Below, piece after piece: positions 14,177 through 41,758 of a DNA stretch of 43,148 nt; position 1 is the first letter of the stretch; the number at the start of each line of letters is the position of its first letter. A program made the position numbers and the translations under genes. A model generated the notes under the pieces. The model was not told the origin of the DNA and ran no database searches. It worked only from the letters and a program-made list of their open reading frames with translations. The stretch covers positions 1 through 43,148 of IMG/VR virus record IMGVR_UViG_3300044998_000778, one strand, 5' to 3'. Source of the stretch: a virus.

Positions 14177-14259
14177 GCAGGCGTCAGCAAGGCGTAGAGC
14201 AGTGCTGCCGTCGACACCGACCACACCACCCACAGCAGCAGTTGCAGCGTCTGCATCAT
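14128..14259 (-). CDS. Small membrane protein convergent with cysH
   Basis: A 43-residue protein with one hydrophobic helix (LLLWVVWSVSTAALLYALL). The ATG at 14259 overlaps the stop of the gene before it. Its last ~16 codons lie inside the 3' end of cysH on the other strand. They look like antisense of that gene, as if the original C-terminus was lost when the csf operon was inserted. It may be a holin component; family not recognised. Confidence 0.45.
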   Translation of the reverse strand: MMQTLQLLLWVVWSVSTAALLYALLTPAQVAFDRRRTRSMASR

Positions 14260-14534
14260 CGCACCTGATCGATGGTCGGCACGGTGATCGCGGGGTTGGC
14301 GGTCCGCAGCAGGGAACTCCACGACTTCATATCGTTCCTGCCCCAGCGATCCGCCATCTCGCCGTGCTCCAGTCGCTGCAGGCGATCGGCGAGCACCTCG
14401 ATCTTGTGCGCGAGGCTCAGCAGCGTCGTGTTGAGCCACACTGCGCTGCCGATGCCCGTCAGCAGGACGGCGACGGCCGCGCTGATGGTGAGGACCCCGC
14501 GGTCGATGACCTTGCCGTTGCTGTTGCCGTTCAT
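14256..14534 (-). CDS. Small membrane/coiled-coil protein, holin-like candidate
   Basis: A 92-residue protein with one membrane helix (VLTISAAVAVLLTGIGSAVW, residues ~14-33) and then a heptad-patterned segment (LLSLAHKIEVLADRLQRLE). This is a common layout for small phage proteins near lysis or tail-fibre genes. The ATG at 14534 overlaps the stop of the tail-fibre-like gene. A holin or tail-accessory role is inferred from layout and position. Confidence 0.55.
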   Translation of the reverse strand: MNGNSNGKVIDRGVLTISAAVAVLLTGIGSAVWLNTTLLSLAHKIEVLADRLQRLEHGEMADRWGRNDMKSWSSLLRTANPAITVPTIDQVR

Positions 14535-17500
14535 GGCATGAAGACCAGTTTCGCTCCGTAGATGCGGAAGTAGCTGTTCGCCGACGAGCTGTCCCACTGG
14601 TTGGTGATCGAAAGCGTCCAGTCGACGTCGGCCGGAAGCGTGGCATCCCCCGAGCCGAGGCCGCCGTGCGTGGCCGCGAACGCGCCCCAGTCGCCGAATC
14701 CGGACGTCCCGCTCACGGCCTGGGACAGCAGCAGCTCGCCGATGACTCTCTGCTTGTCGGTGGATCCGCGTGGCAACACGAAGATGCGGGCAACGAAGCC
14801 GCGGCGGTTGGAAGACGACGCGAAGCTGTTGGACTTGTCGAAGATCGTCGTCGTCGTAGTGCCGTCGCTGATCTTGATCCGGATTCTCGAGACGTTGCCT
14901 CCGCCGCTGTTCTGGAGGAAATCTCCCCAGATGTGCAGGCACCAGACGCCGGTCGCGCTGCTCAGGGCCGGGATCGTCGCCGCCACCAAGGTCCCCTCGG
15001 CCGTGCTGCTGGCTCCGACCGTGCGCACCGGATCTCCGGACTCGCTCCATTGCGTGTAGTGGACGCCGAGCATGCCTCGGACCTGGGCGACAGTCAGGTC
15101 CTCGGGATCTCCCGTTCCGGAGGTGATGCGCCCCTTGATCGCTGGCGCTGTCATGTTCGCCAGCTTGGCGTTGGTGACGGCATCGTCGGCGATGCCCGTG
15201 GTGCCGATCGTGCCGCTCAGGAGCGTGCGCCACGCGCCGCCGATGGCATCCCAGTGCTCGACGACATCGTTGCTGCCGCTGGAGTTCACGCGAATCGCGC
15301 CTCCGGACGGCGAGGCCGGCCGCTGCGCCGTCGTGCCGCGCGGGATGCGGAGCGCCTGCGTGCCGCCGATGGCGACGTCGATCTCGCCGCTGGACTGGAT
15401 CACCCGAGCCGTCAGGAGGTCGCGCGCCACGCGGCCGCTGTCGAGCTGCCGGACCCTCAAGGTCTGATCGGTCGCGCCGTGGTCCTGGTCGATCGTGACG
15501 GATGCGGCTGCCAGCCCGCCGTCCTGCACTGGCCGGCCGAGGGCCATGGCGACGCCGGGCGCGACGGCGACGAACGACCGGGTCGTCGGGGACAGCACGC
15601 TCGCGGCGTCGCCGAGGCCGAAGTAGTCCGTCAGCTCGAGACCGGGAGGCGTGTAGAGGATGCCGCCGTCGGCCTCGCCGCCGCGCGCCCTGGAAGCGAT
15701 CGGCGTCCGGGCGTAGCGCCAGTCGCCCGTGGCGAGGTCGATCGCACCCCAGGTCCTCACGGCGAGCACCTGCGGTCGCACCGCCTCGTCCCGAACGATC
15801 AGCGAGCGGTCGATGCCCGGGCCGTGCAGGAAGTCGGGCTCGCCGAGCAGGTCGAGCTGCGGCCGGAAGGCGATGCCGGCGAACGACTCCAGCATCGGGT
15901 GATGGATGGCGTAGAGCGCCAGGTCGGCACGGCCAATCTGGCCCACCATCGGTGCGCCGCCGACGCTCGGCCGCGCCGGCTCCGCCCTCCTGGCCCGGTT
16001 GGCTCCGCCGACCCACCACTGCGGATCGTCTCCTGGGCCGCCTGACGGGCCCGGAGACGACGGCGCGAGATCCCCGCCGGTCTCTGGAGCCCCCCCATTG
16101 CCAACGGGGCCTCCTGGGGCCGCTGGGGCCGCTGGCGGGGCTGCGGACGGCCCGCTGCCGCCGCCGGTGATCGGGTAGCCGGGGAACCTGGGGCCGTGCG
16201 GACCCATCGGGTTCGGCGTGATCGGCCGGCTGCCCGGCGGCGGGCTCCCAGCGCCAGGTGCCGGCGGCGCACCGCCGGTCGGGGTCCTCGGCTGTCCACC
16301 GGGCGGCCCTGGCGGCGGCGGAGCCGGCGTCCTCGGCGCTCCAGGCCCCCCCGGTGTCGGCGGCGAGCCCGGGGAGCCGGGAGCGCCGGGGCTGCCTGGC
16401 GTCGGTGGGCGCGGGCGGGGCCGGTCCTCGACGGGCACGTCGGGGCCGAAGTAGGGCACCTCGGCCCACCATCGCCACAGGCCTGCCGCCGTCCCGCCCG
16501 GGTGCGTATGCGTGCTGTCCTTGTCGTAGCCGAGGTAGACCTTCGCCAGCAGCGGCCAGCTCGGCGGATGCGGGTAGTCCCGGCCGAACTCGAGCGGCGC
16601 GTCGTAGGTCGCGTCGCGGAAGAAACAGGCGCGCGTGCTGATGTGCGCGATCTGGATCGGGTGGCCGTCGCGGTCCTCTCCGAGGTGGTGCTTGTCGCCG
16701 CGAAGCGCGCCGCCATGGATCGGCCCGCCGCCTTCCTCCGCGAGGATCGCGATCAGGTGGCTGCCCTTGCGCTCCGGGCTGAACTTCCCAGAGGAGTCGG
16801 GGCCGCTGCCGAGCAGCGCGGCCGAGGAGTCGGCGGCCGAGGCCGCCCGCAGCAGCGATGCGTTCGCGATCGACTCCTGATCCTGACCAGGCATGTCGTC
16901 GCCGAGCTGCAGCGGCTGGCTGCCAGAGGATCCTCCCGGAGTGATCGGCCCGGTGACGGGTCCTGCCGGCGGCTCGCCGCCGCTCCCGGGGCCGCCCGTG
17001 ATCGGACCGGAAGGACCGCCGGACCAGCCACGGATCCAGACCATGCCGAGGCCGGCAAGGTTGTCTACGCCGCCGCGGCCGAAGTTCAGCGCGATCGCGT
17101 TCCCGCCGGACAGGTCGACGTGCCGGCTCGCGCCGTCCTCGAGAGCGACGACGCGGAAGGCGGACTGCAGGCGTGCGTGCCTGCCGCCGATGCCGGGCGT
17201 CCGTGATCCGGCCATGCATGCCTCGCCGGACGGCTGCAGATCGACGACGAGCGTGCCGCAGGTTGCCGGGCCAGCGGTCGACGGAGCGAACAGCCGGTTG
17301 TCGAGGCTGCCCATCACCTCCTGCTGCGAGGTGTCCGATGTCGTCGGGAAGACCGCCACGAGAGTGCCGCGAGGCAGGCGGCTGAACGACCGCGGCCAGC
17401 CGGGGTAGATGCTGGCGAAGCGGCTATCGCTGTTCCAGCCGAACGAGCCCGCCGGCTGCACGGCTGCGTAGTCGCCGGTGATCGGCGCACCGCCGGCAGA

Positions 17501-17788
17501 ACTCATCGCCCGCCCGGTGATCGCCGCGAAGCCCTGCGCCCAGGCTCCGACCGACCGCAGGCCGCGGTCGCGCGTCTGCCAGAGCATCCAAGGATGCACG
17601 GTCCCGATGCTGCCCTGCGTGCCGTCCCTGCCGATCTCGACGCCGAACTGCCCGGACTCGCCGTCTGACACGTCCGGGGAACGCATCACGCGCGCCCCAA
17701 GCACGTGCTTCTTGCCGACCAGCGGCACGTCGGGGTCGTGGTCCTGCAGGGGCAGGATGCCGTCGTTGCGTGAGTCCCAGAGCTTCAC
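14531..17788 (-). CDS. Tail fibre/tip-like protein with collagen-like region
   Basis: The 1085-residue protein (GTG start at 17788) is the largest gene. Residues ~430-590 hold a Pro/Gly-rich tract with Gly-x-Pro style repeats. A smaller Gly/Pro segment lies near residues 255-290. The N-terminal part is tail-tip-like. The C-terminal ~250 residues are Ser/Thr/Gly-rich with a DDAVTNAKLANMTAPAIKGR segment, a sequence type common in phage tail-fibre repeats before the tip domain. It probably forms a trimeric fibre for host recognition. It overlaps its neighbours on both sides by 4 bases. Confidence 0.65.
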   Translation of the reverse strand: MKLWDSRNDGILPLQDHDPDVPLVGKKHVLGARVMRSPDVSDGESGQFGVEIGRDGTQGSIGTVHPWMLWQTRDRGLRSVGAWAQGFAAITGRAMSSAGGAPITGDYAAVQPAGSFGWNSDSRFASIYPGWPRSFSRLPRGTLVAVFPTTSDTSQQEVMGSLDNRLFAPSTAGPATCGTLVVDLQPSGEACMAGSRTPGIGGRHARLQSAFRVVALEDGASRHVDLSGGNAIALNFGRGGVDNLAGLGMVWIRGWSGGPSGPITGGPGSGGEPPAGPVTGPITPGGSSGSQPLQLGDDMPGQDQESIANASLLRAASAADSSAALLGSGPDSSGKFSPERKGSHLIAILAEEGGGPIHGGALRGDKHHLGEDRDGHPIQIAHISTRACFFRDATYDAPLEFGRDYPHPPSWPLLAKVYLGYDKDSTHTHPGGTAAGLWRWWAEVPYFGPDVPVEDRPRPRPPTPGSPGAPGSPGSPPTPGGPGAPRTPAPPPPGPPGGQPRTPTGGAPPAPGAGSPPPGSRPITPNPMGPHGPRFPGYPITGGGSGPSAAPPAAPAAPGGPVGNGGAPETGGDLAPSSPGPSGGPGDDPQWWVGGANRARRAEPARPSVGGAPMVGQIGRADLALYAIHHPMLESFAGIAFRPQLDLLGEPDFLHGPGIDRSLIVRDEAVRPQVLAVRTWGAIDLATGDWRYARTPIASRARGGEADGGILYTPPGLELTDYFGLGDAASVLSPTTRSFVAVAPGVAMALGRPVQDGGLAAASVTIDQDHGATDQTLRVRQLDSGRVARDLLTARVIQSSGEIDVAIGGTQALRIPRGTTAQRPASPSGGAIRVNSSGSNDVVEHWDAIGGAWRTLLSGTIGTTGIADDAVTNAKLANMTAPAIKGRITSGTGDPEDLTVAQVRGMLGVHYTQWSESGDPVRTVGASSTAEGTLVAATIPALSSATGVWCLHIWGDFLQNSGGGNVSRIRIKISDGTTTTTIFDKSNSFASSSNRRGFVARIFVLPRGSTDKQRVIGELLLSQAVSGTSGFGDWGAFAATHGGLGSGDATLPADVDWTLSITNQWDSSSANSYFRIYGAKLVFMP

Positions 17789-20013
17789 GGTGAGCCGTAC
17801 GGTAGCACACCAAGGAGAACGTGCCGAACGCTGTTCGGCAGCATCGCAAACCGGCTGACGCTGTGCGGCTCGATCGAGTACTCGTGCAGCACGATCACTC
17901 GGGACGACGGCGCGGCACTGACGGCGATCGTCGTCGAGGCCATGTTGCCGACGAGGTCGCCGACCTGGTCGCCGAGCGCCGTGGCGACCGTGCCCGTCCA
18001 GGTGTCCGCGAAGCTGGCGATCGCCTCGGCAGCGACCGCGCGGCTGTGCGCCCGAATCTCGCTCTCGTTCACGAGCACATAGCCCGGCAGCGGCCCGTCG
18101 ATGCCTGGCTCGTCGTACGGCTCGCCGTTCTCGTTCACCATCTCGAGGCCGAGCAGGCGCGCCGCGGTGAACCTCGCCACGGCATCGTCATCCCATGCCC
18201 ACCGCGCCGTCGCTTCGCTGGGGTCGACGAAGATCTCCATCGGCGGGCCGGAACCGCCCTGCAGCGAGAAGCTGTCGCGGAACACGTCGTCGATGTCGTC
18301 GCTGCGAACGGTCACCTTGTGGAACTGCCGCTTGTTGTTCGGCGCCGCCGGCACCATCGTCAGCATCGCCATCACGGTGGTCTTGTTGGCGAGCAGGAGC
18401 CCGTTCGCGCCCTCGCGCGTCTTGCCGCCGAGCAGGACCGGCACGTCGATCTGCCGCTCGATGTTGTCGCTCAGACCAGAGAACTGCTCGTTCTCGTCGA
18501 CCAGGTTGCACGGGATGAAACCGTTGCTAAGGCCGTATGGGCTCTCCAGCCAGTCGATGCGGAAGATGCCGACGTCCTCGTCCAGCATCGTGACCGCGCT
18601 CGGCGCTGCAGGCGTGTCGACGGTCTTCTGCCCAAGCTGCGGCAGGAAGTCCAGGTTGATGGTCAGGAACCGGAGTCCGTCCGTGTCCCGCTTGCGCGAG
18701 ATCTGGAACCTGTCGTCGGCGAGCATGCATGCCTTCGCCCACACCAGCGATCGCGCGCGCAGCCCGGTCGCCGGATCCAGCAGCCGCACGCGCGTCGCCT
18801 GCAGCGACCGCACGCGCTGCACGTATCGCTGGTTGATCCGGAACGTCTGCCGGAAGTGCCGGCGAAGCGATGCAACCCGCAGCTCGGGATTCGAGGAGAT
18901 CTCCTGCGTCGGCGTCGACCTGCCGACGTTGCCAAGGCATCCCTCTAGCCCGCCCTCCATCCAGTAGTGGCGGAGGGTTCGGAACGTCCACGGCAGGCTC
19001 TCCTCAGGACGGTCCTCGTCCATGGCCTTGAGCCAGTCGCCGGCCTCGATCCAGGTGCCCTGCCGCACGGTCGTCTCGACTTCCTCGCCGCGCTCGGGCA
19101 GGAACACCTTCACCTGCGTCGTCGGATCGACCGTCGGAATCACGTTCTCGGCGAACGGTGTGTTCTTGCCGGGCCTGGCGCTGGTCTGCCCGCTGTAGTC
19201 GTCGTCGAAGCGCACCAGCACCTCGACCTCGCGCTGGTAGTAGACGTCGATCCTGATCGGCCGGATCTTGTTCTTGCGCACCAGCACCGGATGGTCGCCG
19301 TCCCAGGTTCGTGTCTCCTGGCTCTGGATGCGCTGTTCCGTCTCGCGCAGCGCGGTGCCGTCGAAGATGCAGACCTCGCCGTCAGGCGCGACGAACACCT
19401 GCGCGCCGGGGATGTAACCGAGGATCTGGCCCAGCGCGACGTGCCCGGGATCCCGCAGCAGGATGTTCTGCAGCGAGAACTTGCCCTGCGTGTCGTCGCC
19501 CTTGATCGGCAGCGACAGGATGCGGAACCGCTGGTTCTCCAGCGTGCTGAGCACGTCGCGCAGCAGGTCCTCGGCCGTCCATCGCCTCTTGCCGTCGATC
19601 AGCGAGTACTCGCGGAACTGGTACTCGTCCGCCGTCACGACCATCTCGATCGGGACCGGCCCCTGACCCTCAGGCGCGAACACGTTGCCGGTGCGCTTGG
19701 TGACGTTGACGTCGCGAACGATAAGCTTGTACGGCCACAGCCAGCGGCAGTCGGCGACGACGAAGCTCGCACGGTGCGGACTGTCGCTCGGGCTCTCGTG
19801 CAGGACGTAGACCCGCTCGATCGTCACGGTCTTGCCCCTGGCGTCGGTGATCTTCAGTTGCAGCGGCCGCCCCATCTGGTGGCGGAGCGCGTCCCACTGA
19901 CTGCGATGCACCGACATCGTGGTCACGTAGGGCGCCGTTCCAGTGGTCAACCGCCACTGGATCGCCTGCGTGGCCGCAAGGGGGACGCCGCCAAGGATCG
20001 CCTCGCTCTTCAT
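17785..20013 (-). CDS. Tail hub/baseplate-like structural protein
   Basis: A 742-residue protein starting at ATG 20013, which overlaps the stop of 20010-20642. The first ~280 residues (MKSEAILGGVPLAATQ..., followed by a segment with VRDVNVTKRTGNVF) read as a tail-hub-type beta-rich domain. The rest is mixed, with an extended domain that includes a probable beta-sandwich near residues 490-640. Position after tape-measure-like and tail genes and before the fibre gene supports a baseplate or tail-tip role. No specific family is assigned. Confidence 0.55.
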   Translation of the reverse strand: MKSEAILGGVPLAATQAIQWRLTTGTAPYVTTMSVHRSQWDALRHQMGRPLQLKITDARGKTVTIERVYVLHESPSDSPHRASFVVADCRWLWPYKLIVRDVNVTKRTGNVFAPEGQGPVPIEMVVTADEYQFREYSLIDGKRRWTAEDLLRDVLSTLENQRFRILSLPIKGDDTQGKFSLQNILLRDPGHVALGQILGYIPGAQVFVAPDGEVCIFDGTALRETEQRIQSQETRTWDGDHPVLVRKNKIRPIRIDVYYQREVEVLVRFDDDYSGQTSARPGKNTPFAENVIPTVDPTTQVKVFLPERGEEVETTVRQGTWIEAGDWLKAMDEDRPEESLPWTFRTLRHYWMEGGLEGCLGNVGRSTPTQEISSNPELRVASLRRHFRQTFRINQRYVQRVRSLQATRVRLLDPATGLRARSLVWAKACMLADDRFQISRKRDTDGLRFLTINLDFLPQLGQKTVDTPAAPSAVTMLDEDVGIFRIDWLESPYGLSNGFIPCNLVDENEQFSGLSDNIERQIDVPVLLGGKTREGANGLLLANKTTVMAMLTMVPAAPNNKRQFHKVTVRSDDIDDVFRDSFSLQGGSGPPMEIFVDPSEATARWAWDDDAVARFTAARLLGLEMVNENGEPYDEPGIDGPLPGYVLVNESEIRAHSRAVAAEAIASFADTWTGTVATALGDQVGDLVGNMASTTIAVSAAPSSRVIVLHEYSIEPHSVSRFAMLPNSVRHVLLGVLPYGSP

Positions 20014-20642
20014 CCGAACACCGATTTCGACGCGCGTTTCAGCGCGTTCCATGCCGGTGCGATGAACTCGAAGATCTTCAAGGCGATGACGTCGTCGATG
20101 CTGTTCGTCTGCAGCATCGGGTCGAGCATGATCGCGTTGAGGCCGCGCTGCATGATCTGGTTGTGCCGGAACCTCCAGTTGTAGAAATCGACCGCCTCGC
20201 GGTGCGCTGGCCCTCCTGGACCCTCCCTGCCGAGCTTCTGCATCAGCATCGGTCGGGACTGGAGGTCTGACGCCGCCATGAGCTCGGCGGCGAGGTCGAC
20301 CACCTTCGCGCCGAGGATCTTGTCGCGGAGCACATGCCCCATGTTCGAGAACGAGCGGCCGGACTCGCCGCGGATGATGACGAGGGCGGCGAACACGAGC
20401 GCGTGTAGCGCAAGCCCGACGGCGCCACCGCGGAGGTTCGTAGCCAGGAAGCGGCCGATGCCTGCGAATCCCGCGCCTGCGACAGCCCTCCGCATCGTGC
20501 TTCGCGCCAGGCGCCCAGGGATTCCACGAGTGCGCGCCAACCTTCGCTCGATCGGACCGGAGACCCGCCGAGTCCCTCCGGTGCGCACAGGGTCCCCAAC
20601 GTCGACGTTGACGTGCAGGACGAGGTCGTCGTGCCCCTTCAT
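20010..20642 (-). CDS. Hypothetical tail-region protein with hydrophobic segment
   Basis: A 210-residue, Arg-rich protein with a hydrophobic stretch near residues 70-90 (GGAVGLALHALVFAALVII). It lies between a tape-measure-like gene and the tail hub gene. Tape-measure and tail-tip proteins often carry such hydrophobic helices. No family is recognised. Confidence 0.5.
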   Translation of the reverse strand: MKGHDDLVLHVNVDVGDPVRTGGTRRVSGPIERRLARTRGIPGRLARSTMRRAVAGAGFAGIGRFLATNLRGGAVGLALHALVFAALVIIRGESGRSFSNMGHVLRDKILGAKVVDLAAELMAASDLQSRPMLMQKLGREGPGGPAHREAVDFYNWRFRHNQIMQRGLNAIMLDPMLQTNSIDDVIALKIFEFIAPAWNALKRASKSVFG

Positions 20643-34421: not shown

Positions 34422-34450
34422 ACCCTACCACGCTCGGTTCAGTGGCGCAA
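34422..34450 (-). promoter_or_regulatory. Putative promoter upstream of the portal gene
   Basis: TTGCGC (34445-34450), a 17 bp spacer and TAGGGT (34422-34427), 10 nt before the ATG at 34411. It lies at the 3' end of the terminase gene. Weak boxes; support comes from the similarity to the other candidates. Confidence 0.3.
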
Positions 34451-37153
34451 GAGGTGCGCCCGGCCATCGTCCTCCTCCTCGTCCCGCTCCTCCGGGTGGA
34501 TGTCATGGTCTGATGCGGGTCGGTTCGCGCGCGCTTCGACGAGCGGCGCTGTGGCAAAGCCGCGTGTCGCGAGCCATGCCCATGCTCCGGACGTCGCGTC
34601 GACGAGGTCGCACGTCGCTGCGTCGGGAAACCCTTCGACCTCGTCGAGGAAGGCCTGCGTCCAAGGGCCACTGAACAGGCGGATGCCGTCGCGCTGATCG
34701 CTGGGAGACCTGCCGGCGTCCACGCCCCACCATACGGACCCGTTGTTCGGCCCTTCGCCGCGGCGCTGGTAGCCTCGCTCCAGGCACGAGGCTACCGGGT
34801 CGGCCCGGCCAGCCTTGGCGCTGTCGCTCGATCGGTTGTGTTGGAGCATGGGGTTGTCGCCGAGGCCGTCCTGCGGCCTCGCGCCGACTACCCGGTAGCC
34901 CTTCTCCCGCAGCCGGCGCTCGATGGCGAGGAACTGCGCGATGCCGCCGCTGCCGCCCTCGATCTCGAGGCCGACGGTGACGTGGTGTCCGTCGGTCTGC
35001 GCCTGCTGCACGATCAGGTCGTCGCGCCGACCTGGCGTAGCCCGGAAGGCGACGGCGTGCTCGATCGCGTACACACCAGACCGGTGGCGGGCCATCAGCA
35101 CGCCGGCCGTCCTGGCGGCATCGGGCCGCTCGGATGCCGCGAGGTCCCACCACCGCACGCGGACGCAATCCGCGAAAGCCCAGCGGTCGCGCTCGGGGTC
35201 CAGGAGCGGGCCGAACCACTCGCGCCGGAAGTAGTCGCCTGGCTCGCGCGCGCTCCAGTCGCCGCGCAGAAGTTGCGCGCGGACCGTGGGATGCAGCCCC
35301 TCAAGGCCGGCGATGTAGGCCGCGCGATCGATGTGCGGGTTGTCCTCGATCCTCGCCGGCACGTACGGATGCTCGGCACGGATGCCTGCCGCCGGGTCTC
35401 CCACGAACCGGGATCGCACCCAGGAATGCCCGGGACCTCCTGGGTTGCTCGTCGAGAGCGTCCGCAGCGGGATCATGCAACCATGCCGGCGGCGGACACG
35501 GGACAGCCCGATGAACCGATACTGCGACTCGCGCGGAAACTGCGTCAGCTCGTCCCACAACGTCGAGTGGAACTCCGCGCCCTGGTACTGCAGGTGGTCG
35601 TGCTCGTGCGCCAGGTAGCCGAACGCCACCTTGGCCCCGGACGGGAACGTGAACGTCTTCGTCGTCCCGTCCCAGGCCACCCCTCGCGGCACCCACCAGG
35701 AGATCGCCCGGTCCATGATCGCCCCAGGCTTCGCAAGCTCCGCGTACGTGCGCCGGAGCACCAGGCATGAGCACTCCGGGTCGTCGACGTACTGCGCCGC
35801 CGCCATCAGCAGGCAGTCGCTGTTGTGGGTCGGGATCAGGTGCTCGCCGGCGAGGAACAGGCGGTCGGGCGACGACACGCGCAGGCACTTCATCGGGCGC
35901 GCCGGCACCCGCTGCGCGTCGACGATGTAGCGGAACTTCGTGGTCCGCCTCGTGCTCATGCGCTGCCGCTCGAGCTTCCGCGGCAGGCGGAACACCGGCA
36001 CGCGGCAGGTCGCGACGACTCGCCATTTCGGACCGATGACGCGGCCATTCAGCTTCGCGACGCCCTCGCGCACTACTGCCTTGTGGCCCAACGATCGCAG
36101 CAGGTGCGAAACCGCTTCCGCGAGCTCCCGATTGGTGTTCGTGAACTCGACGCCGCCGTCGTCAGCGACGCATCCGTCGGTGTCCATCAGCCCCTGCAAC
36201 AGGGCGAGTCGCTGCTCGCGCGAGGCCCACAGGTAGGCATGTGGCACGTGCTTGTTGCCGAACACGCCGAGCGCGCGTAGCTGCTGGCGGAGACCGAGGA
36301 AAGCGTGCGTTGCAGCCTGCCCCGTCGTCTTCGCCTGCACCGCTCCCCGCTGGAAGCCAGCGGCGTCGAACGCGGCCAAGATCTCCGGATCCATCGTGGT
36401 TATGGAGCCCGCGGTAGTGGTGCCGTCGCCGAGCCAGACGCCGAGCAGGTATGGGTCGAGCGGCAGGTCGCGGTGCGGCAGATCCAGCGGCTCGGCCACA
36501 GGAATCGCGTGGTTGGCCCGCCCGCTCGGCGTGCGCAGCGTCGCCACAATCTCCGAGGTCGTGCGAACGGTGCCCGTTGGCAGAGCGCCGCCTGTTCCGG
36601 CCCTCGCCTTGTTCCTCTGGACGATCGATGCGAGGAACGCCGGAGACTTGTTGCCCAACGATCTGCTTGGCCGACGGGCCCGCCGCGCCGCGCGCCACTC
36701 CTCGTCCTTTCTGGTCAGCGCGGAGAGATCCAGAGCGTCGAACGTCAGCCACCGATGGTCGTCGTTGGCGATCAGATCCGAGCCGTCATCGAACGTGAGC
36801 CTCCAAGCCGCCGCGTGCTGAACCTCTGACTCCGCGAGGATCACGTGCGGCTGCCCATCGCGGCCGAGCACGGCGTCGCCGGGCGCCAGGTCGCGCAGCG
36901 GCACGAACCCCGATGGCGTCGGAATCGGCGTGTCGAGGTCGAGCAGCTTCCCCCCTCCGGCAGCCCCGCCGTAGAGCGCCTCGAATACGCGGCTTTCGTC
37001 GCTGCGCAGGTGCAGGCCGAGAAACAGCTGCTGCGTCGCCGTCGGCCAGTGCGGCAGGAACGGGTTGTCTACGATCCCAGGGCAGACCGCCTCGAAGGCC
37101 GCCAGAAGCCTTCGGCGCGCCTCAGCCTCCCGCTCGTCCGTTGGCGTCGTCAT
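34439..37153 (-). CDS. Large terminase subunit interrupted by an intein
   Basis: The ORF can be read as an ATPase/nuclease packaging motor. The P-loop GGAAGGGK-S lies at its start, a Walker B-like STLWDELTQF segment after the intein, and RWWDLAASERPD is the RNase H-like nuclease start. The unspliced product is 904 residues (ATG 37153, AGGAG 10 nt upstream); splicing would give 529. The intein (35822-36946) sits between the Lys and the Ser of the Walker A motif, so the ATPase cannot be active until splicing. The 3' end of the small terminase gene overlaps it. Confidence 0.85.
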   Translation of the reverse strand: MTTPTDEREAEARRRLLAAFEAVCPGIVDNPFLPHWPTATQQLFLGLHLRSDESRVFEALYGGAAGGGKLLDLDTPIPTPSGFVPLRDLAPGDAVLGRDGQPHVILAESEVQHAAAWRLTFDDGSDLIANDDHRWLTFDALDLSALTRKDEEWRAARRARRPSRSLGNKSPAFLASIVQRNKARAGTGGALPTGTVRTTSEIVATLRTPSGRANHAIPVAEPLDLPHRDLPLDPYLLGVWLGDGTTTAGSITTMDPEILAAFDAAGFQRGAVQAKTTGQAATHAFLGLRQQLRALGVFGNKHVPHAYLWASREQRLALLQGLMDTDGCVADDGGVEFTNTNRELAEAVSHLLRSLGHKAVVREGVAKLNGRVIGPKWRVVATCRVPVFRLPRKLERQRMSTRRTTKFRYIVDAQRVPARPMKCLRVSSPDRLFLAGEHLIPTHNSDCLLMAAAQYVDDPECSCLVLRRTYAELAKPGAIMDRAISWWVPRGVAWDGTTKTFTFPSGAKVAFGYLAHEHDHLQYQGAEFHSTLWDELTQFPRESQYRFIGLSRVRRRHGCMIPLRTLSTSNPGGPGHSWVRSRFVGDPAAGIRAEHPYVPARIEDNPHIDRAAYIAGLEGLHPTVRAQLLRGDWSAREPGDYFRREWFGPLLDPERDRWAFADCVRVRWWDLAASERPDAARTAGVLMARHRSGVYAIEHAVAFRATPGRRDDLIVQQAQTDGHHVTVGLEIEGGSGGIAQFLAIERRLREKGYRVVGARPQDGLGDNPMLQHNRSSDSAKAGRADPVASCLERGYQRRGEGPNNGSVWWGVDAGRSPSDQRDGIRLFSGPWTQAFLDEVEGFPDAATCDLVDATSGAWAWLATRGFATAPLVEARANRPASDHDIHPEERDEEEDDGRAHLLRH
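35822..36946 (-). mobile_element. Intein with LAGLIDADG endonuclease domain, class 3 signature
   Basis: 375 codons between Walker-A Lys and Ser of the terminase. It starts LLDLDTPIPTPSGF, with Leu where classical inteins have Cys/Ser, and ends IPTHN followed by Ser. Block B has NDDHRW (Trp two after His), block F has KCLRVSSPDRLFLAG (Cys where class 1 inteins usually have Asp), and block G has PTHN (Thr). This is the Trp-Cys-Thr set that defines class 3 inteins, which splice by a Cys in block F. Two LAGLIDADG-type motifs (LLGVWLGDG and LLQGLMDTDG) show a homing endonuclease, likely active. P-loop insertion in a terminase is a known homing site type. Confidence 0.8.
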
Positions 37154-37505
37154 CGGCCAACAGCTCCTCGCCAAGGGCGGAGAGCCGACGGATGCCGTCG
37201 AGCAGCTCGCCGCGATCGGGGACTGGAGGACCGGCAGGCTCCTGGGTCACGTGCAGGCGATCGGGCTCGGTGTCGCATAGCCTGTCCAGTAGCAGCTTTG
37301 CCGCATGCACGTCGCCCTTGAGGGCCGCCTTGAGGATGGCCCCGAAGATCGTCCAGATCGTCTTCGCCAGGTCGACGTCGGCCTTCGCGGCCGCGTCGAT
37401 GATGATCCGGCGGAAGTCGAAGCCTCGGGCGCGCCCGTTCGGGTTGCCGGTGCTACCGGGGAGCCAGCGTCCGCGTTCGTCCCGTTGTGGTTTGTAGTCG
37501 TGCAT
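37122..37505 (-). CDS. Small terminase-like protein (DUF5681-type N-terminus)
   Basis: The 127-residue protein has the N-terminal RGRWLPGSTGNPNGRARGF motif of DUF5681, a domain common in phage genes just before the large terminase. The rest is helical. The position directly upstream of the large terminase, with overlap, supports a small-terminase role (packaging-site recognition), though the fold cannot be confirmed. Confidence 0.6.
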   Translation of the reverse strand: MHDYKPQRDERGRWLPGSTGNPNGRARGFDFRRIIIDAAAKADVDLAKTIWTIFGAILKAALKGDVHAAKLLLDRLCDTEPDRLHVTQEPAGPPVPDRGELLDGIRRLSALGEELLADDDANGRAGG

Positions 37506-37516
37506 CGCCGTGCTTG

Positions 37517-37951
37517 TCAGGGAGCATCATGGACCGGCACAGGCCATAGCCCGAGCCTTCCGCGGCATCGGATAGGCTGCTCTAACTTGCGTGCGTTCCG
37601 CAAGATCCATCCGACTGGGCCAAGCCAGTATCTGGCATCGAGATCGTTGAGTTCGCGCCTGCTGGTCACGATGTCGACGACGTCAACGGTCGCGATGATG
37701 GCTCCGAGGGTCAGCCTGCTCTCGTCGATGCCGAACCTTCGGCACAAGGCCGTGTCGGGCCTGCAGGAGGCGTGGATGGCGATGCGGAACGGCAGCGACA
37801 GGCGCGGGGCCCATGTCCTGTTCTCGACGGTCTTCTCGCCGTTGGCGATGAGGGAGGCCCATGGCTCGCGGACGCTCAGGGCGTAGGCGAGCGCCGAGGA
37901 AGGCCTGGGATCGAGGCCGATCGCGTCGGTCCCGTGGGGAGTGTTGTCCAT
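37517..37951 (-). CDS. ASCH-domain protein
   Basis: The 144-residue protein has the ASCH start ALSVREPWASLIANGEKTVE followed by NRTWAPR (residues ~22-50). ASCH folds bind RNA or modified nucleosides, and some are N4-acetylcytidine amidohydrolases. A -10-like TAGGAT ends 6 nt before the ATG at 37951, so the message may be leaderless. It lies next to the proposed DNA-modifying ATPase/acetyltransferase. Confidence 0.7.
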   Translation of the reverse strand: MDNTPHGTDAIGLDPRPSSALAYALSVREPWASLIANGEKTVENRTWAPRLSLPFRIAIHASCRPDTALCRRFGIDESRLTLGAIIATVDVVDIVTSRRELNDLDARYWLGPVGWILRNARKLEQPIRCRGRLGLWPVPVHDAP

Positions 37952-37957
37952 GATGCG

Positions 37958-37985
37958 ATCCTACCACGGTGCCTGACGGCGTCGA
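37958..37985 (-). promoter_or_regulatory. Promoter-like site giving a leaderless ASCH transcript
   Basis: TCGACG (37980-37985), a 16 bp spacer and TAGGAT (37958-37963), with 6 nt to the ATG. Confidence 0.35.
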
Positions 37986-39145
37986 GTTACGGCTCCTTTC
38001 CCTGGCTTGAAGACCCCCCATCGCTTAGGCGGACCGTACCCCGTGACGGTCATCGCCTGTCGGATGTCGGGGTGGGATTGGCCTACGTATTCAAAGCCGT
38101 AACATGGCCTGGCTCCTTGCTTAGGAACGATGTTCTTGGGATTGACGCCTACCCTCTTCCTGGGGTCTCTGACGAGTTTCCAGCGTGGCGATCGCACGTG
38201 GGCTCGAACGAAGCTCGGATGCGCTGGGTAGTTCCGGAAGCGCCAGCCGATGGCCTTGAGCATGGCCCCGATCGAGTCGAGGAGCACGAAGGCGAGGCCG
38301 AGCCCCTGGTAGTCCGGGAGTGTGACGATGCGGCTGACTGCGATCAGGTTCATGGTCACCGGGTGCGGTCGGTAGAGCAAGCCGGCCATGACTGCCAGCT
38401 CGGATTCTGCCCACAGCCCGAAGCATTGGGCGGCCACCGGAAGTTCCGCGCTCAGATAGTGATAGCGAGAGAAGCGGGACCACTCGGAGCGTGGCACCCT
38501 CGCGATCGTGCAGGCGATGCTCGGTCGTCGTTGAAGACACCTCCAGTGGAAGCATCCGCCTGCCCCCATGTCTATCTGCCAGTCGGGCTGCAGCCAGTCG
38601 ATGATGTCCGCGTGGCAGCTCACCGCCACCAGCCGCCCCTGGCTGGCGCGCACGGTCTTCTGGACTGCATGCGAGACGATCTTCGCCACCTGCCGGTCGA
38701 CGACGGAAGTGAACTCGTCGACCAGGACGGTGCTGTCGCCGGCCTCGGCGAGGATCCTTGCCATGTCGGCACGGAACTTCTCTCCGTTCGAGAGCACGTC
38801 GTACGGTCGTAGCCATGCCGGGATTGTGTTCAGGCCGACGGCCGAGCAGGCGGCGACGATGTCGTTTATGGCCATGCCCGCAGGGAAGCAGTCGACCATG
38901 GCCGTCCCAGGCTTCCACTCCGGACGGCGTTCCGCCCCGAAGAGCTTCCTGGCGATCGTCGTCTTGCCGGAACCGCTTGGGCCGAAGATCAGCCCGATCT
39001 TCCATGGCCGCTGCTCGAGAGGGGCCTCGATCTGCCATTCGAGGCGCTGTCTCTCAGAGATCGGAACGTCGTACATCGCCGCCACCTGGCGGCAGCGGAT
39101 CGTGATCGGCACAGAGGACTCGACTACAGCATGAGCGGTCGGCAT
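37961..39145 (-). CDS. ABC-type ATPase fused to a GNAT/Mom-like acetyltransferase domain
   Basis: The 394-residue protein has an ABC ATPase N-terminal half: Walker A GPSGSGKTT (residues ~55-63), signature LSNGEK (~118-123) and Walker B TVLVDE (~139-144). The C-terminal half (~190-394) is a GNAT-like fold with LPDYQGLGLAFVLLDSIG, the acetyl-CoA-binding motif A. COG2401-type ABC ATPases are fused to such a domain. Mom-like GNATs modify DNA adenines in Mu-type phages, so a role in DNA modification with the neighbouring ParB-like protein is possible but not proven. The ATG at 39145 has GAGGG 6 nt upstream and starts inside the ParB-like gene. Confidence 0.7.
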   Translation of the reverse strand: MPTAHAVVESSVPITIRCRQVAAMYDVPISERQRLEWQIEAPLEQRPWKIGLIFGPSGSGKTTIARKLFGAERRPEWKPGTAMVDCFPAGMAINDIVAACSAVGLNTIPAWLRPYDVLSNGEKFRADMARILAEAGDSTVLVDEFTSVVDRQVAKIVSHAVQKTVRASQGRLVAVSCHADIIDWLQPDWQIDMGAGGCFHWRCLQRRPSIACTIARVPRSEWSRFSRYHYLSAELPVAAQCFGLWAESELAVMAGLLYRPHPVTMNLIAVSRIVTLPDYQGLGLAFVLLDSIGAMLKAIGWRFRNYPAHPSFVRAHVRSPRWKLVRDPRKRVGVNPKNIVPKQGARPCYGFEYVGQSHPDIRQAMTVTGYGPPKRWGVFKPGKGAVTRRRQAPW

Positions 39146-39672
39146 TGGTATCCCTCGGATTCGAGCCGCTCGATCAGCCTTGCCTGCTCTGCCTCGTTGC
39201 GGCACTCGACCTGAACCCCGTAGGTCACCTCGAAGGTGTTCGGGGCCTCTTCATCGACTGGTTCCTCGAGAGCATCGCGGATGTCGTCGTCGCTGAGCGC
39301 CAGGAGCTTCCGCACGTCGTCGGGGATGGTCTCCAGGCTTCTGAGGAGGACGTCTTCGTCCCAGTCCGCCAGCTCCGCCGTCCTGTTGTCGGCGATCGCA
39401 TACTGCACGGCGGTCGCGTCCTGCTCGTCGACGACGACGGCGGCGATCTCCTCCCACCCGATGGCCTTCGCGGCCTCGAGCGTCGCGTTGCCGGCGCGAA
39501 CGATCATCCCTGACTTCTGGACGACGATCGGCTTGCGCTGCCCGAATAGCCGCAGGCTGTGTGCTATCGACTCGATGTTCCGCTTCGGGTGTTTGCGAGC
39601 ATTCGCCGGGTCTGGAACAAGGTCCGCAATCCGCAGCATGCGGACCAGCACTGCTGGGTAGCGATCGGTCAT
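39124..39672 (-). CDS. ParB/Sulfiredoxin-like N-terminal-domain protein
   Basis: The 182-residue protein contains the ParB-type pattern LRIADLVPDPANARKHPKRN followed by IAHSLRLFGQRKPIVVQ and VRAGNATLEAAKAIGWEEI, with the GNxTLEAA box near residue 60. Phage ParB-like proteins of this size are often paired with DNA methyltransferases or modification genes, and here the neighbour is the ATPase/GNAT gene. The ATG at 39672 overlaps the RecT stop. Confidence 0.75.
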   Translation of the reverse strand: MTDRYPAVLVRMLRIADLVPDPANARKHPKRNIESIAHSLRLFGQRKPIVVQKSGMIVRAGNATLEAAKAIGWEEIAAVVVDEQDATAVQYAIADNRTAELADWDEDVLLRSLETIPDDVRKLLALSDDDIRDALEEPVDEEAPNTFEVTYGVQVECRNEAEQARLIERLESEGYQCRPLML

Positions 39673-40727
39673 CCTTCGGCGATCTCCTGCTCGCGCGCCT
39701 CGTAGGCGGCGGCGACCGTCTCCGCGTCGCTGCCGGTGAAGTGCTGCCACCGATCGCGCAATGCCTCCAGATCCCGCATGCTCGAGGCGGCTTGGATGGC
39801 CGCGACGGCATCCTCTGCGAGGTCGAAGGGCGCTTGGGTGGCGGCCTGGATCCCCAGGACCTTCCTGGCAGCCGCCGCCCTTGTCGATGGGGCCTCGGCG
39901 CTCGCTGGCGCTTCGGTGGTGGAATCGGCTGGGTCGGCGCTGTCGGTGTCCATCTCGTCGTCCCTCTGTATCGCCCCGGTCATGCCCATGTCCATCGGGA
40001 CCGAGCCCCCGGCCAGCAGGCGGCGCAGGACCGACTTGCGCGCCATGCGCGGGAAGTCCTTGTGCCATGGAGAGTCGCGGCGAGGCGGGCGGCCTCCGTA
40101 GCCGTTCTCGGCGAACCGATACGCCTCCGATCGCTCGCGGAGCGCCAGGATATCGGCCCTGGGCATCACCTCGAAGATGGGGTCATCGGTCACCGCCCTG
40201 GTGCTGTTCGGCTCGGTGATGACGCAGCGGGCGTAGGCCGCGACGACAAGGTCGTCGGACCGGTCGATGTCCATCCGCCAGGCGTGGTGCAGCTTGTTCT
40301 CGCCGGGCAGCCAGTCGAACGGCTCGCCTTCGTAGACGAGGTTGGCCGTGATGCTGTGCACGCGCGGGTGGCGTAGAGCCATCTCCATCAGCCCCTTGTA
40401 GCCGATGATCGACGTCACCTCTGGAGCGCCCCTCCGCTCCCGAGGAACCAGAAAGAACTTCTGGTAGCGAGCGCCGACGAGCAGCTTGCACTGCGCTGCA
40501 TGCAGCAGGCACTGCATGGCGGTTCCTGGAGAGCGCCGGAATGCTTCCGCGAGCTTCGGCTGGGCGGCCACATCCTCGGCCACGGCGGAGATGAAGTTGC
40601 CGACCGGAAGCAGACCCGAGATCAGCTCATACGACAGGGCTCGCTCGATCTGCTGCCGGAAGTGAAGGCACAGGGCCTCGCCAGGGTTCTTCGCCGTCTC
40701 GACGGCGGGCGTGCTTTGCGCGCTCAC
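39669..40727 (-). CDS. recT: RecT-family single-strand annealing protein
   Basis: The 352-residue product shows the RecT pattern: FISAVAEDVAAQPKLAEAF, AMQCLLHAAQCKLLVGARYQ and SIIGYKGLMEMALRHPRV. It binds ssDNA and anneals strands. The ORF starts close to the YqaJ stop (4-base overlap), so the pair forms a typical phage recombination operon. The C-terminal ~100 residues are low complexity and Ala/Glu-rich, then helical. Confidence 0.85.
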   Translation of the reverse strand: MSAQSTPAVETAKNPGEALCLHFRQQIERALSYELISGLLPVGNFISAVAEDVAAQPKLAEAFRRSPGTAMQCLLHAAQCKLLVGARYQKFFLVPRERRGAPEVTSIIGYKGLMEMALRHPRVHSITANLVYEGEPFDWLPGENKLHHAWRMDIDRSDDLVVAAYARCVITEPNSTRAVTDDPIFEVMPRADILALRERSEAYRFAENGYGGRPPRRDSPWHKDFPRMARKSVLRRLLAGGSVPMDMGMTGAIQRDDEMDTDSADPADSTTEAPASAEAPSTRAAAARKVLGIQAATQAPFDLAEDAVAAIQAASSMRDLEALRDRWQHFTGSDAETVAAAYEAREQEIAEG

Positions 40728-41758
40728 GCCTCACCTCCCTCCAGGAACGCCGAAAGGTCGGCGACACGGACCGTTCGCCTCTGCTCCGCGACGGTCTCGG
40801 GAGGCCGTAGGAACGCCTCGTAGGTGCCTCGCTCCTGCTTGCCGAGGGCGGTGGTGTCGAGCTTGCGGAACCGCGCGGCGATCTCCGGATGCGCGGCCTC
40901 GAAGGCGGCGGCGTCGAAGCGGCGGTCGGCTCCAAGGCGCACGATCGTGACGACCTTGCCGGCGGGAGTGCGCTTCACGATCTGCTCCGCATCCTGGGCG
41001 AAGCCCAGTAGCAGGGCCTTGAGGCGCGACTCCTCGGCCTCGCATTCCTCGACTACCTGCCGGCGATACGCCGAGACCTCGGCGAGCGATCTTGCCCACG
41101 CAAGCTGCTCCTCGGTCGCTTCGACGGTCTTGCCGCGCCGCACCAGCCAGCGCATGCGCATGTCGGCCTCGTCGCGAGGGTCCGGCGGGTTCCCTTCGCG
41201 CAGCCTGGCGAGGAACTCCAATGCCTGCTGCTCGATCCGCTCGATCACATCCTCGTCGAGGTGGATCCGGTAGATGGAGGTGCCGGACAGCAGGTTCGCG
41301 GCGAGCAGGCCTTCCTCCGCGGATGCCAGGCCTGGATACTCGTCCTGCCTCCGGCATCGTCGCCACAGGTGCCCCTGCACCTGCACCTGCATCCAGTACT
41401 GCATCGGCACCTGATCCGTGCCGGGATCGCCCCATTCGGGGCTCCGGCTACGGACAGCGTGCTTGACCTCCAGCGGTCCGACGCATCCCTGCCTCAGGCA
41501 CAGGCGGTCGAGATGGCACGACAGCGGGCCGTGAACAAGGCGGCGCTGGTTGCTGGCGGGGTCGATCGCCAGCGAGTACTTCCGCGCGGCGATGCGAGCG
41601 ATTGCGTCCTCGAACTCGCGGCCTTCTTCGAGGACCTCGCTGTCCTCGATCGGCGGCATCTCGCCGCGCATCTGCAGGTAGAGGCCGAGGGGGGAGAGTC
41701 GCGGGTCGCAGCCGATCATGGCGGCAACGCGCGACGCGGAAACGGTGCTGTGATCCAT
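40724..41758 (-). CDS. YqaJ/lambda-exonuclease-type recombinase nuclease
   Basis: The 344-residue protein matches YqaJ-type nucleases: it begins SASRVAAMIGCDPRLSPLGL, then has EEGREFEDAIARIAARKY, and the active site CHLDRLC with PLEVKHA supplies the Asp and the Glu-x-Lys. It degrades the 5' strand of DNA ends so RecT can bind. The ATG at 41758 follows a -10-like TAGACT by 6 nt, without a Shine-Dalgarno sequence. Confidence 0.85.
   Translation of the reverse strand: MDHSTVSASRVAAMIGCDPRLSPLGLYLQMRGEMPPIEDSEVLEEGREFEDAIARIAARKYSLAIDPASNQRRLVHGPLSCHLDRLCLRQGCVGPLEVKHAVRSRSPEWGDPGTDQVPMQYWMQVQVQGHLWRRCRRQDEYPGLASAEEGLLAANLLSGTSIYRIHLDEDVIERIEQQALEFLARLREGNPPDPRDEADMRMRWLVRRGKTVEATEEQLAWARSLAEVSAYRRQVVEECEAEESRLKALLLGFAQDAEQIVKRTPAGKVVTIVRLGADRRFDAAAFEAAHPEIAARFRKLDTTALGKQERGTYEAFLRPPETVAEQRRTVRVADLSAFLEGGEA

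Follow-up and report, generated by a model that had tools for sequence, protein, structure and literature searches.

Class 3 inteins have no nucleophile at position 1 and carry instead Trp at position 12 of block B (B:12), Cys at F:4 and Thr at G:5, the so-called WCT triplet (PMC3196547, PMC5050341, PMC7891396); the chemistry by which they splice is established (PMC4031507, PMC7664689). The junction between Lys and the following Ser or Thr of the P-loop is a "classic" intein site, designated TerL1-a in mycobacteriophage terminases (PMC5050341); that study demonstrated both splicing and cutting for other terminase large subunit (TerL) inteins. The combination of this site with this class has already been published (PMC5050341, PMC7664689, PMC3196547). 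With this in mind, we analysed a viral contig of 43,148 nucleotides (IMG/VR record IMGVR_UViG_3300044998_000778, positions 1 to 43,148), which as a whole is referred to here as the window. From sequence comparison and a structural model we conclude with high confidence that the Walker A motif of a phage TerL is host, between Lys and Ser, to a mobile intein of class 3.

The precursor encoded by the host gene matches the phage terminase large subunit family phrog_979 in its C-terminal part (E 5e-72, precursor residues 445-870), and matches to Terminase_6N and Terminase_6C lie slightly below the Pfam cut-offs. The insert splits Walker A precisely at the Lys-Ser junction (GGAAGGGK/LLDLDTP...KCLRV...PTHN/SDCLLM, where slashes mark junctions; in wider context LYGGAAGGGK/LLDLDTPIPTPSGF and LFLAGEHLIPTHN/SDCLLMAAAQ), and the original prediction, which had placed it there at 35822-36946, was exact in its coordinates. 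Joining the exteins without the insert gives GGAAGGGK-SDCLLMAAAQYV, which matches intein-free relatives such as GGAAGGGKSDALLMAAAQ, and the insert-free TerL reading, GGAAGGGKSDCLLMAAAQYV, likewise resembles them. According to the terminase alignment, both exteins keep their conserved residues, those of the C-extein being intact. GC content is 0.689 in the intein vs 0.696 and 0.704 in the exteins; composition is uninformative here, and the intein does not look recent by this measure. The features are collected in Table 1.

Table 1. Features of the intein-bearing TerL gene, in window coordinates; residues are numbered within the intein, and fractions refer to the alignment of 88 inteins.
Feature	Position	Strand	Description
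TerL precursor gene	34439..37153	-	One open frame, 904 aa; ATG at 37153, stop at 34439
N-extein	36947..37153	-	69 aa, ending ...LYGGAAGGGK (Walker A through Lys); aligns with intein-free terminases
Walker A, GGAAGGGK	36947..36970	-	Broken before Ser (Ser codon 35819-35821); unbroken GGAAGGGKS in intein-free relatives
Class 3 intein with LAGLIDADG endonuclease	35822..36946	-	375 aa, Leu1 to Asn375, no stop in frame
His64 (B:10)	36755-36757	-	88/88; aligned with 6bs8, 6rix
Trp66 (B:12), W of WCT (DDHRW)	36749..36751	-	88/88; aligned with 6bs8, 6rix
LAGLIDADG motif 1, LLGVWLGDG, Asp174	36422..36448	-	Asp in 87/88; helix in model
LAGLIDADG motif 2, LQGLMDTDG, Asp257	36173..36199	-	Asp257 in 88/88; helix in model
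Cys354 (F:4), C of WCT (KCLRV)	35885..35887	-	Predicted first nucleophile; 88/88; aligned with class 3 DnaB structures
Thr373 (G:5), T of WCT (PTHN)	35828..35830	-	88/88
His374	35825-35827	-	88/88
Asn375	35822-35824	-	88/88
C-extein	34439..35821	-	460 aa from Ser+1; remainder of ATPase domain and RNase H-like nuclease domain

Downstream of TerL, Pfam matches identify, as the next genes, a Mu-type portal (PF06074) and a Mu F-like head protein (PF04233). A DUF5681 protein (37122-37505, minus strand) overlaps the TerL start, and its location makes it a candidate for the small terminase subunit; an ASCH-domain protein (PF04266, phrog_3193; 37517-37951, minus strand) lies between the packaging and recombination genes. 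Adjoining the packaging genes is a 414-aa protein (37961-39205, minus strand) whose N-terminus is of the ABC/AAA ATPase type and whose C-terminal stretch resembles an acetyltransferase; it matches phrog_11143, a family of unknown function (E 4.5e-90). Since ParB-like, RecT-like and RecE-like proteins are encoded at 39124-41758 (minus strand), the phage possesses recombination functions of its own, and these could aid intein homing. Several long frames at 289-23955 (minus strand), for example 14256-17219 (987 aa) and 17785-20052 (755 aa), had no PHROG or Pfam match at the limits used, and a search of GTDB (one genome per species) with the whole precursor returned no close prophage and no host, only three distant matches.

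The class of the intein was assessed in a first alignment with nine other phage inteins and in a larger one of 88 inteins, which comprises the window intein, IMG/VR loci, some isolated phages and one mycobacterial DnaB intein. At least 80 IMG/VR loci had been gathered by patterns derived from the two endonuclease motifs and not from the WCT triplet. The databases covered were IMG/VR, isolated phages and GTDB (one genome per species), and frequencies within the 88-intein set describe the nearest relatives only. Because His64, Trp66, Cys354, Thr373, His374 and Asn375 are each invariant (88 of 88, where the His and Asn counts hold partly by construction, the C-terminal junctions having been set via a His-Asn pattern, and the Thr, Cys and Trp counts do not), conservation of the triplet is not attributable to chance. 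Cys, Ser or Thr occurs at position 1 in none of the 88, the window intein having Leu1, and the +1 residue is split evenly between Ser and Thr (44 each; THN/S in the window). Among solved structures, the class 3 Mycobacterium DnaB inteins 6bs8 and 6rix/6riy come nearest in sequence (E 2e-18 to 3e-17), and W, C and T are in register with them in both alignments inspected (6bs8 and 6rix).

It could be argued that the insert belongs to class 1 or class 2 and has a chance Cys in block F, given that the first residue of class 2 inteins is not a nucleophile either and that some class 1 inteins have Cys at F:4 (PMC3196547). Class 1, however, requires Cys, Ser or Thr where the window has Leu, and this assignment was rejected. 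Every class 2 intein known is a KlbA orthologue that starts with Ala and has Ser at G:6 (PMC4031507), a position occupied by His in the window; together with the full WCT triplet and the class 3 nature of the nearest structures, this led us to reject class 2 as well and makes either assignment extremely improbable.

The structure prediction covered the intein plus ten flanking extein residues on either side; from an alignment with 56 relatives, confined to window and IMG/VR sequences, AlphaFold2 returned a confident model (mean pLDDT 91.8, pTM 0.90). The top Foldseek matches of this model are PI-SceI and other intein endonucleases; I-DmoI was also matched, as were the 6bs8, 6rix and 6riy chains (target TM 0.78-0.84). 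Both LAGLIDADG motifs noted in the original prediction, LLGVWLGDG and LQGLMDTDG, are present with their catalytic Asp kept, and a match to PF14528 (LAGLIDADG_3, E 4e-11) covers the motif 2 part of the intein. At position 362, probably F:13, the window intein has Arg. His is found there in 41 of the 88 aligned inteins, and a His at F:13 helps Asn cyclisation in many inteins. Altogether, the aligned residues and the model show a predicted HINT splicing domain in which none of the class 3 residues is missing, joined to a two-motif LAGLIDADG endonuclease. The assignment to class 3 made in the original prediction thus holds: in the block alignment the F-block Cys and the B-block Trp are both in place, the WCT residues take class 3 positions among the 88 inteins and against the solved DnaB inteins, and a HINT fold is modelled, so that the insert is confirmed, by sequence and predicted fold, as real and as rightly put in class 3.

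On one point the original prediction has to be corrected, namely that a Leu at position 1 is unusual even for class 3. Among the 88 nearest-relative inteins, residue 1 is Ala in 47, Leu in 18, Gly in 7, Gln in 5, Pro in 4, Met in 3, Asp in 2 and Arg in 2, so that Leu is second only to Ala, and within the 32 that follow a GGxxGGGK-like flank it is the commonest residue (11, followed by Ala with 9 and Gly with 7). The intein of an isolated phage, Gordonia phage Verity, also begins with Leu. A tree of the inteins that omits their first five residues calls for at least 14 switches between Leu and non-Leu, several of its branches being weak. As far as these comparisons go, Leu1 is ordinary in terminase class 3 inteins, and the expectation should be that it is common there. 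It also fits the class 3 mechanism, because residue 1 only supplies the amide for attack by Cys F:4.

By this mechanism, Cys354 would attack the Lys69-Leu1 bond to give a branched thioester at block F, the N-extein would pass to Ser+1, cyclisation of Asn375 would release the intein, and an acyl shift would join Lys to Ser, restoring GGAAGGGKS. Since the Walker A loop of the precursor is split, packaging should need splicing, and the precursor would be devoid of ATPase and packaging activity until spliced. The endonuclease would cut terminase genes that lack the intein, at the sequence coding for Walker A, with repair copying the intein in. That the endonuclease is active and that packaging depends on splicing, as originally proposed, we infer from established knowledge. 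One may object that the intein has decayed, retaining its signature after loss of splicing or homing and leaving the terminase dead or fragmented: a class 3 pseudogene is known, Arsp-FB24 Arth_1007 (PMC3196547), and the contig comes from a virus collection, which does not evidence infectivity. Yet that pseudogene has lost Cys F:4 (PMC3196547), which the window intein keeps, and all catalytic residues, both endonuclease Asp, the open frame and the conserved extein residues are intact here, so that we consider decay very unlikely and retain an intact, presumably splicing intein as the preferred reading.

A search with the C-extein, which is independent of the intein, yielded 79 usable relatives (a locus duplicating L024 was not counted; L-numbers label terminase/intein loci, and WIN the intein-bearing locus in the window). 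An intact P-loop is found in 75 of the 79, two carry an intein, and two have an unclear upstream flank. The site is empty in the closest terminase found (L103, 59% identity). Furthermore, L107 is occupied and L106, L104 and L158 are empty, with 83-87% DNA identity to L107 on both flanks. The intein tree joins WIN to L019, L020 and L021 (support 100/99), while by path length in the terminase tree WIN lies nearer L107 and L024. Intein data reject a grouping of WIN, L107 and L024 (p-AU 0.003); extein data do not reject a clade of WIN, L019, L020 and L021 (p-AU 0.108), and because of this latter value, transfer of the intein into the window's own terminase lineage is likely, not proven. Mobility of the intein as such is well supported by these sequence comparisons, namely by the empty closest relative, the occupied/empty pair and the conflict between intein and terminase trees, which show a patchy and apparently non-vertical spread at the same site in related phages.

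Beyond mobility, splicing might act as a regulated switch, holding packaging back until a signal arrives, for example a redox signal sensed through the oxidisable Cys of block F. For mycobacterial DnaB inteins, splicing is reported to be conditional on oxidative stress, reactive chlorine or zinc (PMC6195587, PMC8557812, PMC7360933), and N-cleavage of the MchDnaB1 intein is inhibited by H2O2 (PMC7664689); an intein in the packaging ATPase might respond likewise. However, 75 of the 79 sampled relatives manage intein-free, and a patchy distribution with swapped inteins fits a selfish element, so that we regard such a switch as unlikely and favour a mobile element.

A swap of inteins is seen in four contigs from different metagenome records. 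The terminases of L030 and L048 are 94.8% identical and their inteins 44.5%, with DNA flanks of 92% and 90% identity up to the site; for L035 and L059 the corresponding values are 77.7% and 41.9%. Across these pairs, L030 and L035 share one intein lineage (72.6%) on terminases 31.7% identical, and L048 and L059 the other (69.5%) on terminases 36.5% identical. Grouping L030 with L048 is rejected by the intein data (p-AU 7e-7) and grouping L030 with L035 by the extein data (p-AU 0.001); the pairs were picked after viewing the trees, which makes these p-values optimistic, and the identities are large effects. The two divergent inteins start with Leu or Gly and sit at the same P-loop site. The simplest reading of these sequences is that two class 3 inteins have replaced each other at one homing site. 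We propose, at evenly balanced confidence, that divergent class 3 inteins may compete for the Walker A codons of phage terminases as a homing site, repeatedly displacing one another there, the window intein being one occupant. If true, the four loci would be a case of alleles replaced through homing between terminases that share only about 32-37% identity, and intein residue 1 (Leu or Gly) would be free to vary on a constant extein flank.

Lys precedes the intein in 83 of the 88 aligned inteins. A few class 3 relatives lie at other positions: one, L057, splits a P-loop before SGKT, and four others (L070, L073, L077 and L096) are without a preceding P-loop Lys. In two relatives of the window terminase, from Gordonia phage GMA6 (L012) and Brevibacterium phage Cantare (L013), the P-loop is empty, but farther downstream the terminase gene contains an insert that starts with Cys and looks like a class 1 intein (KFQ or KLQ/C...SGN/S).

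In summary, our analysis contributes a class 3 intein of full length, complete with its endonuclease, from a phage terminase gene that neighbours a Mu-type portal. Intein-free alleles offer natural homing substrates, and the occupied/empty pair together with the swap among the four loci renders homing across distant terminases directly testable. Compared with known systems, the window intein is of a known and common kind, found at the same site in many phages. It resembles the Mycobacterium DnaB inteins (MsmDnaB1, 6bs8; MchDnaB1, 6rix/6riy) in the WCT triplet, the B-block His, the THN end and the insertion after the P-loop Lys (SVGK/Ala1 in MchDnaB1). Those, however, are mini-inteins of about 140 residues that lack an endonuclease, start with Ala and reside in a replicative helicase, whereas the window intein has 375 residues, LAGLIDADG motifs and a Leu start and resides in TerL. 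Like mycobacteriophage TerL1-a, it interrupts TerL after the invariant Walker A Lys, directly before the hydroxyl residue that follows (PMC5050341), but the terminase family differs, that of the window being phrog_979/Terminase_6-like with an adjoining Mu-like portal. Identity to its best relatives from isolated phages is only about 32-37%; the Verity TerL intein (L011), for instance, follows the same P-loop Lys (K/LVAHDTPVPTPTGW...PTHN/S, Leu1, WCT), yet is 32% identical and sits in another terminase. Closest are the inteins of three uncultured IMG/VR phages (L019, L020 and L021), which have 51-58% intein identity, the same site and the WCT triplet, L019 starting with Leu like the window and L020 and L021 with Ala, although their terminases are just 36-40% identical to that of the window.
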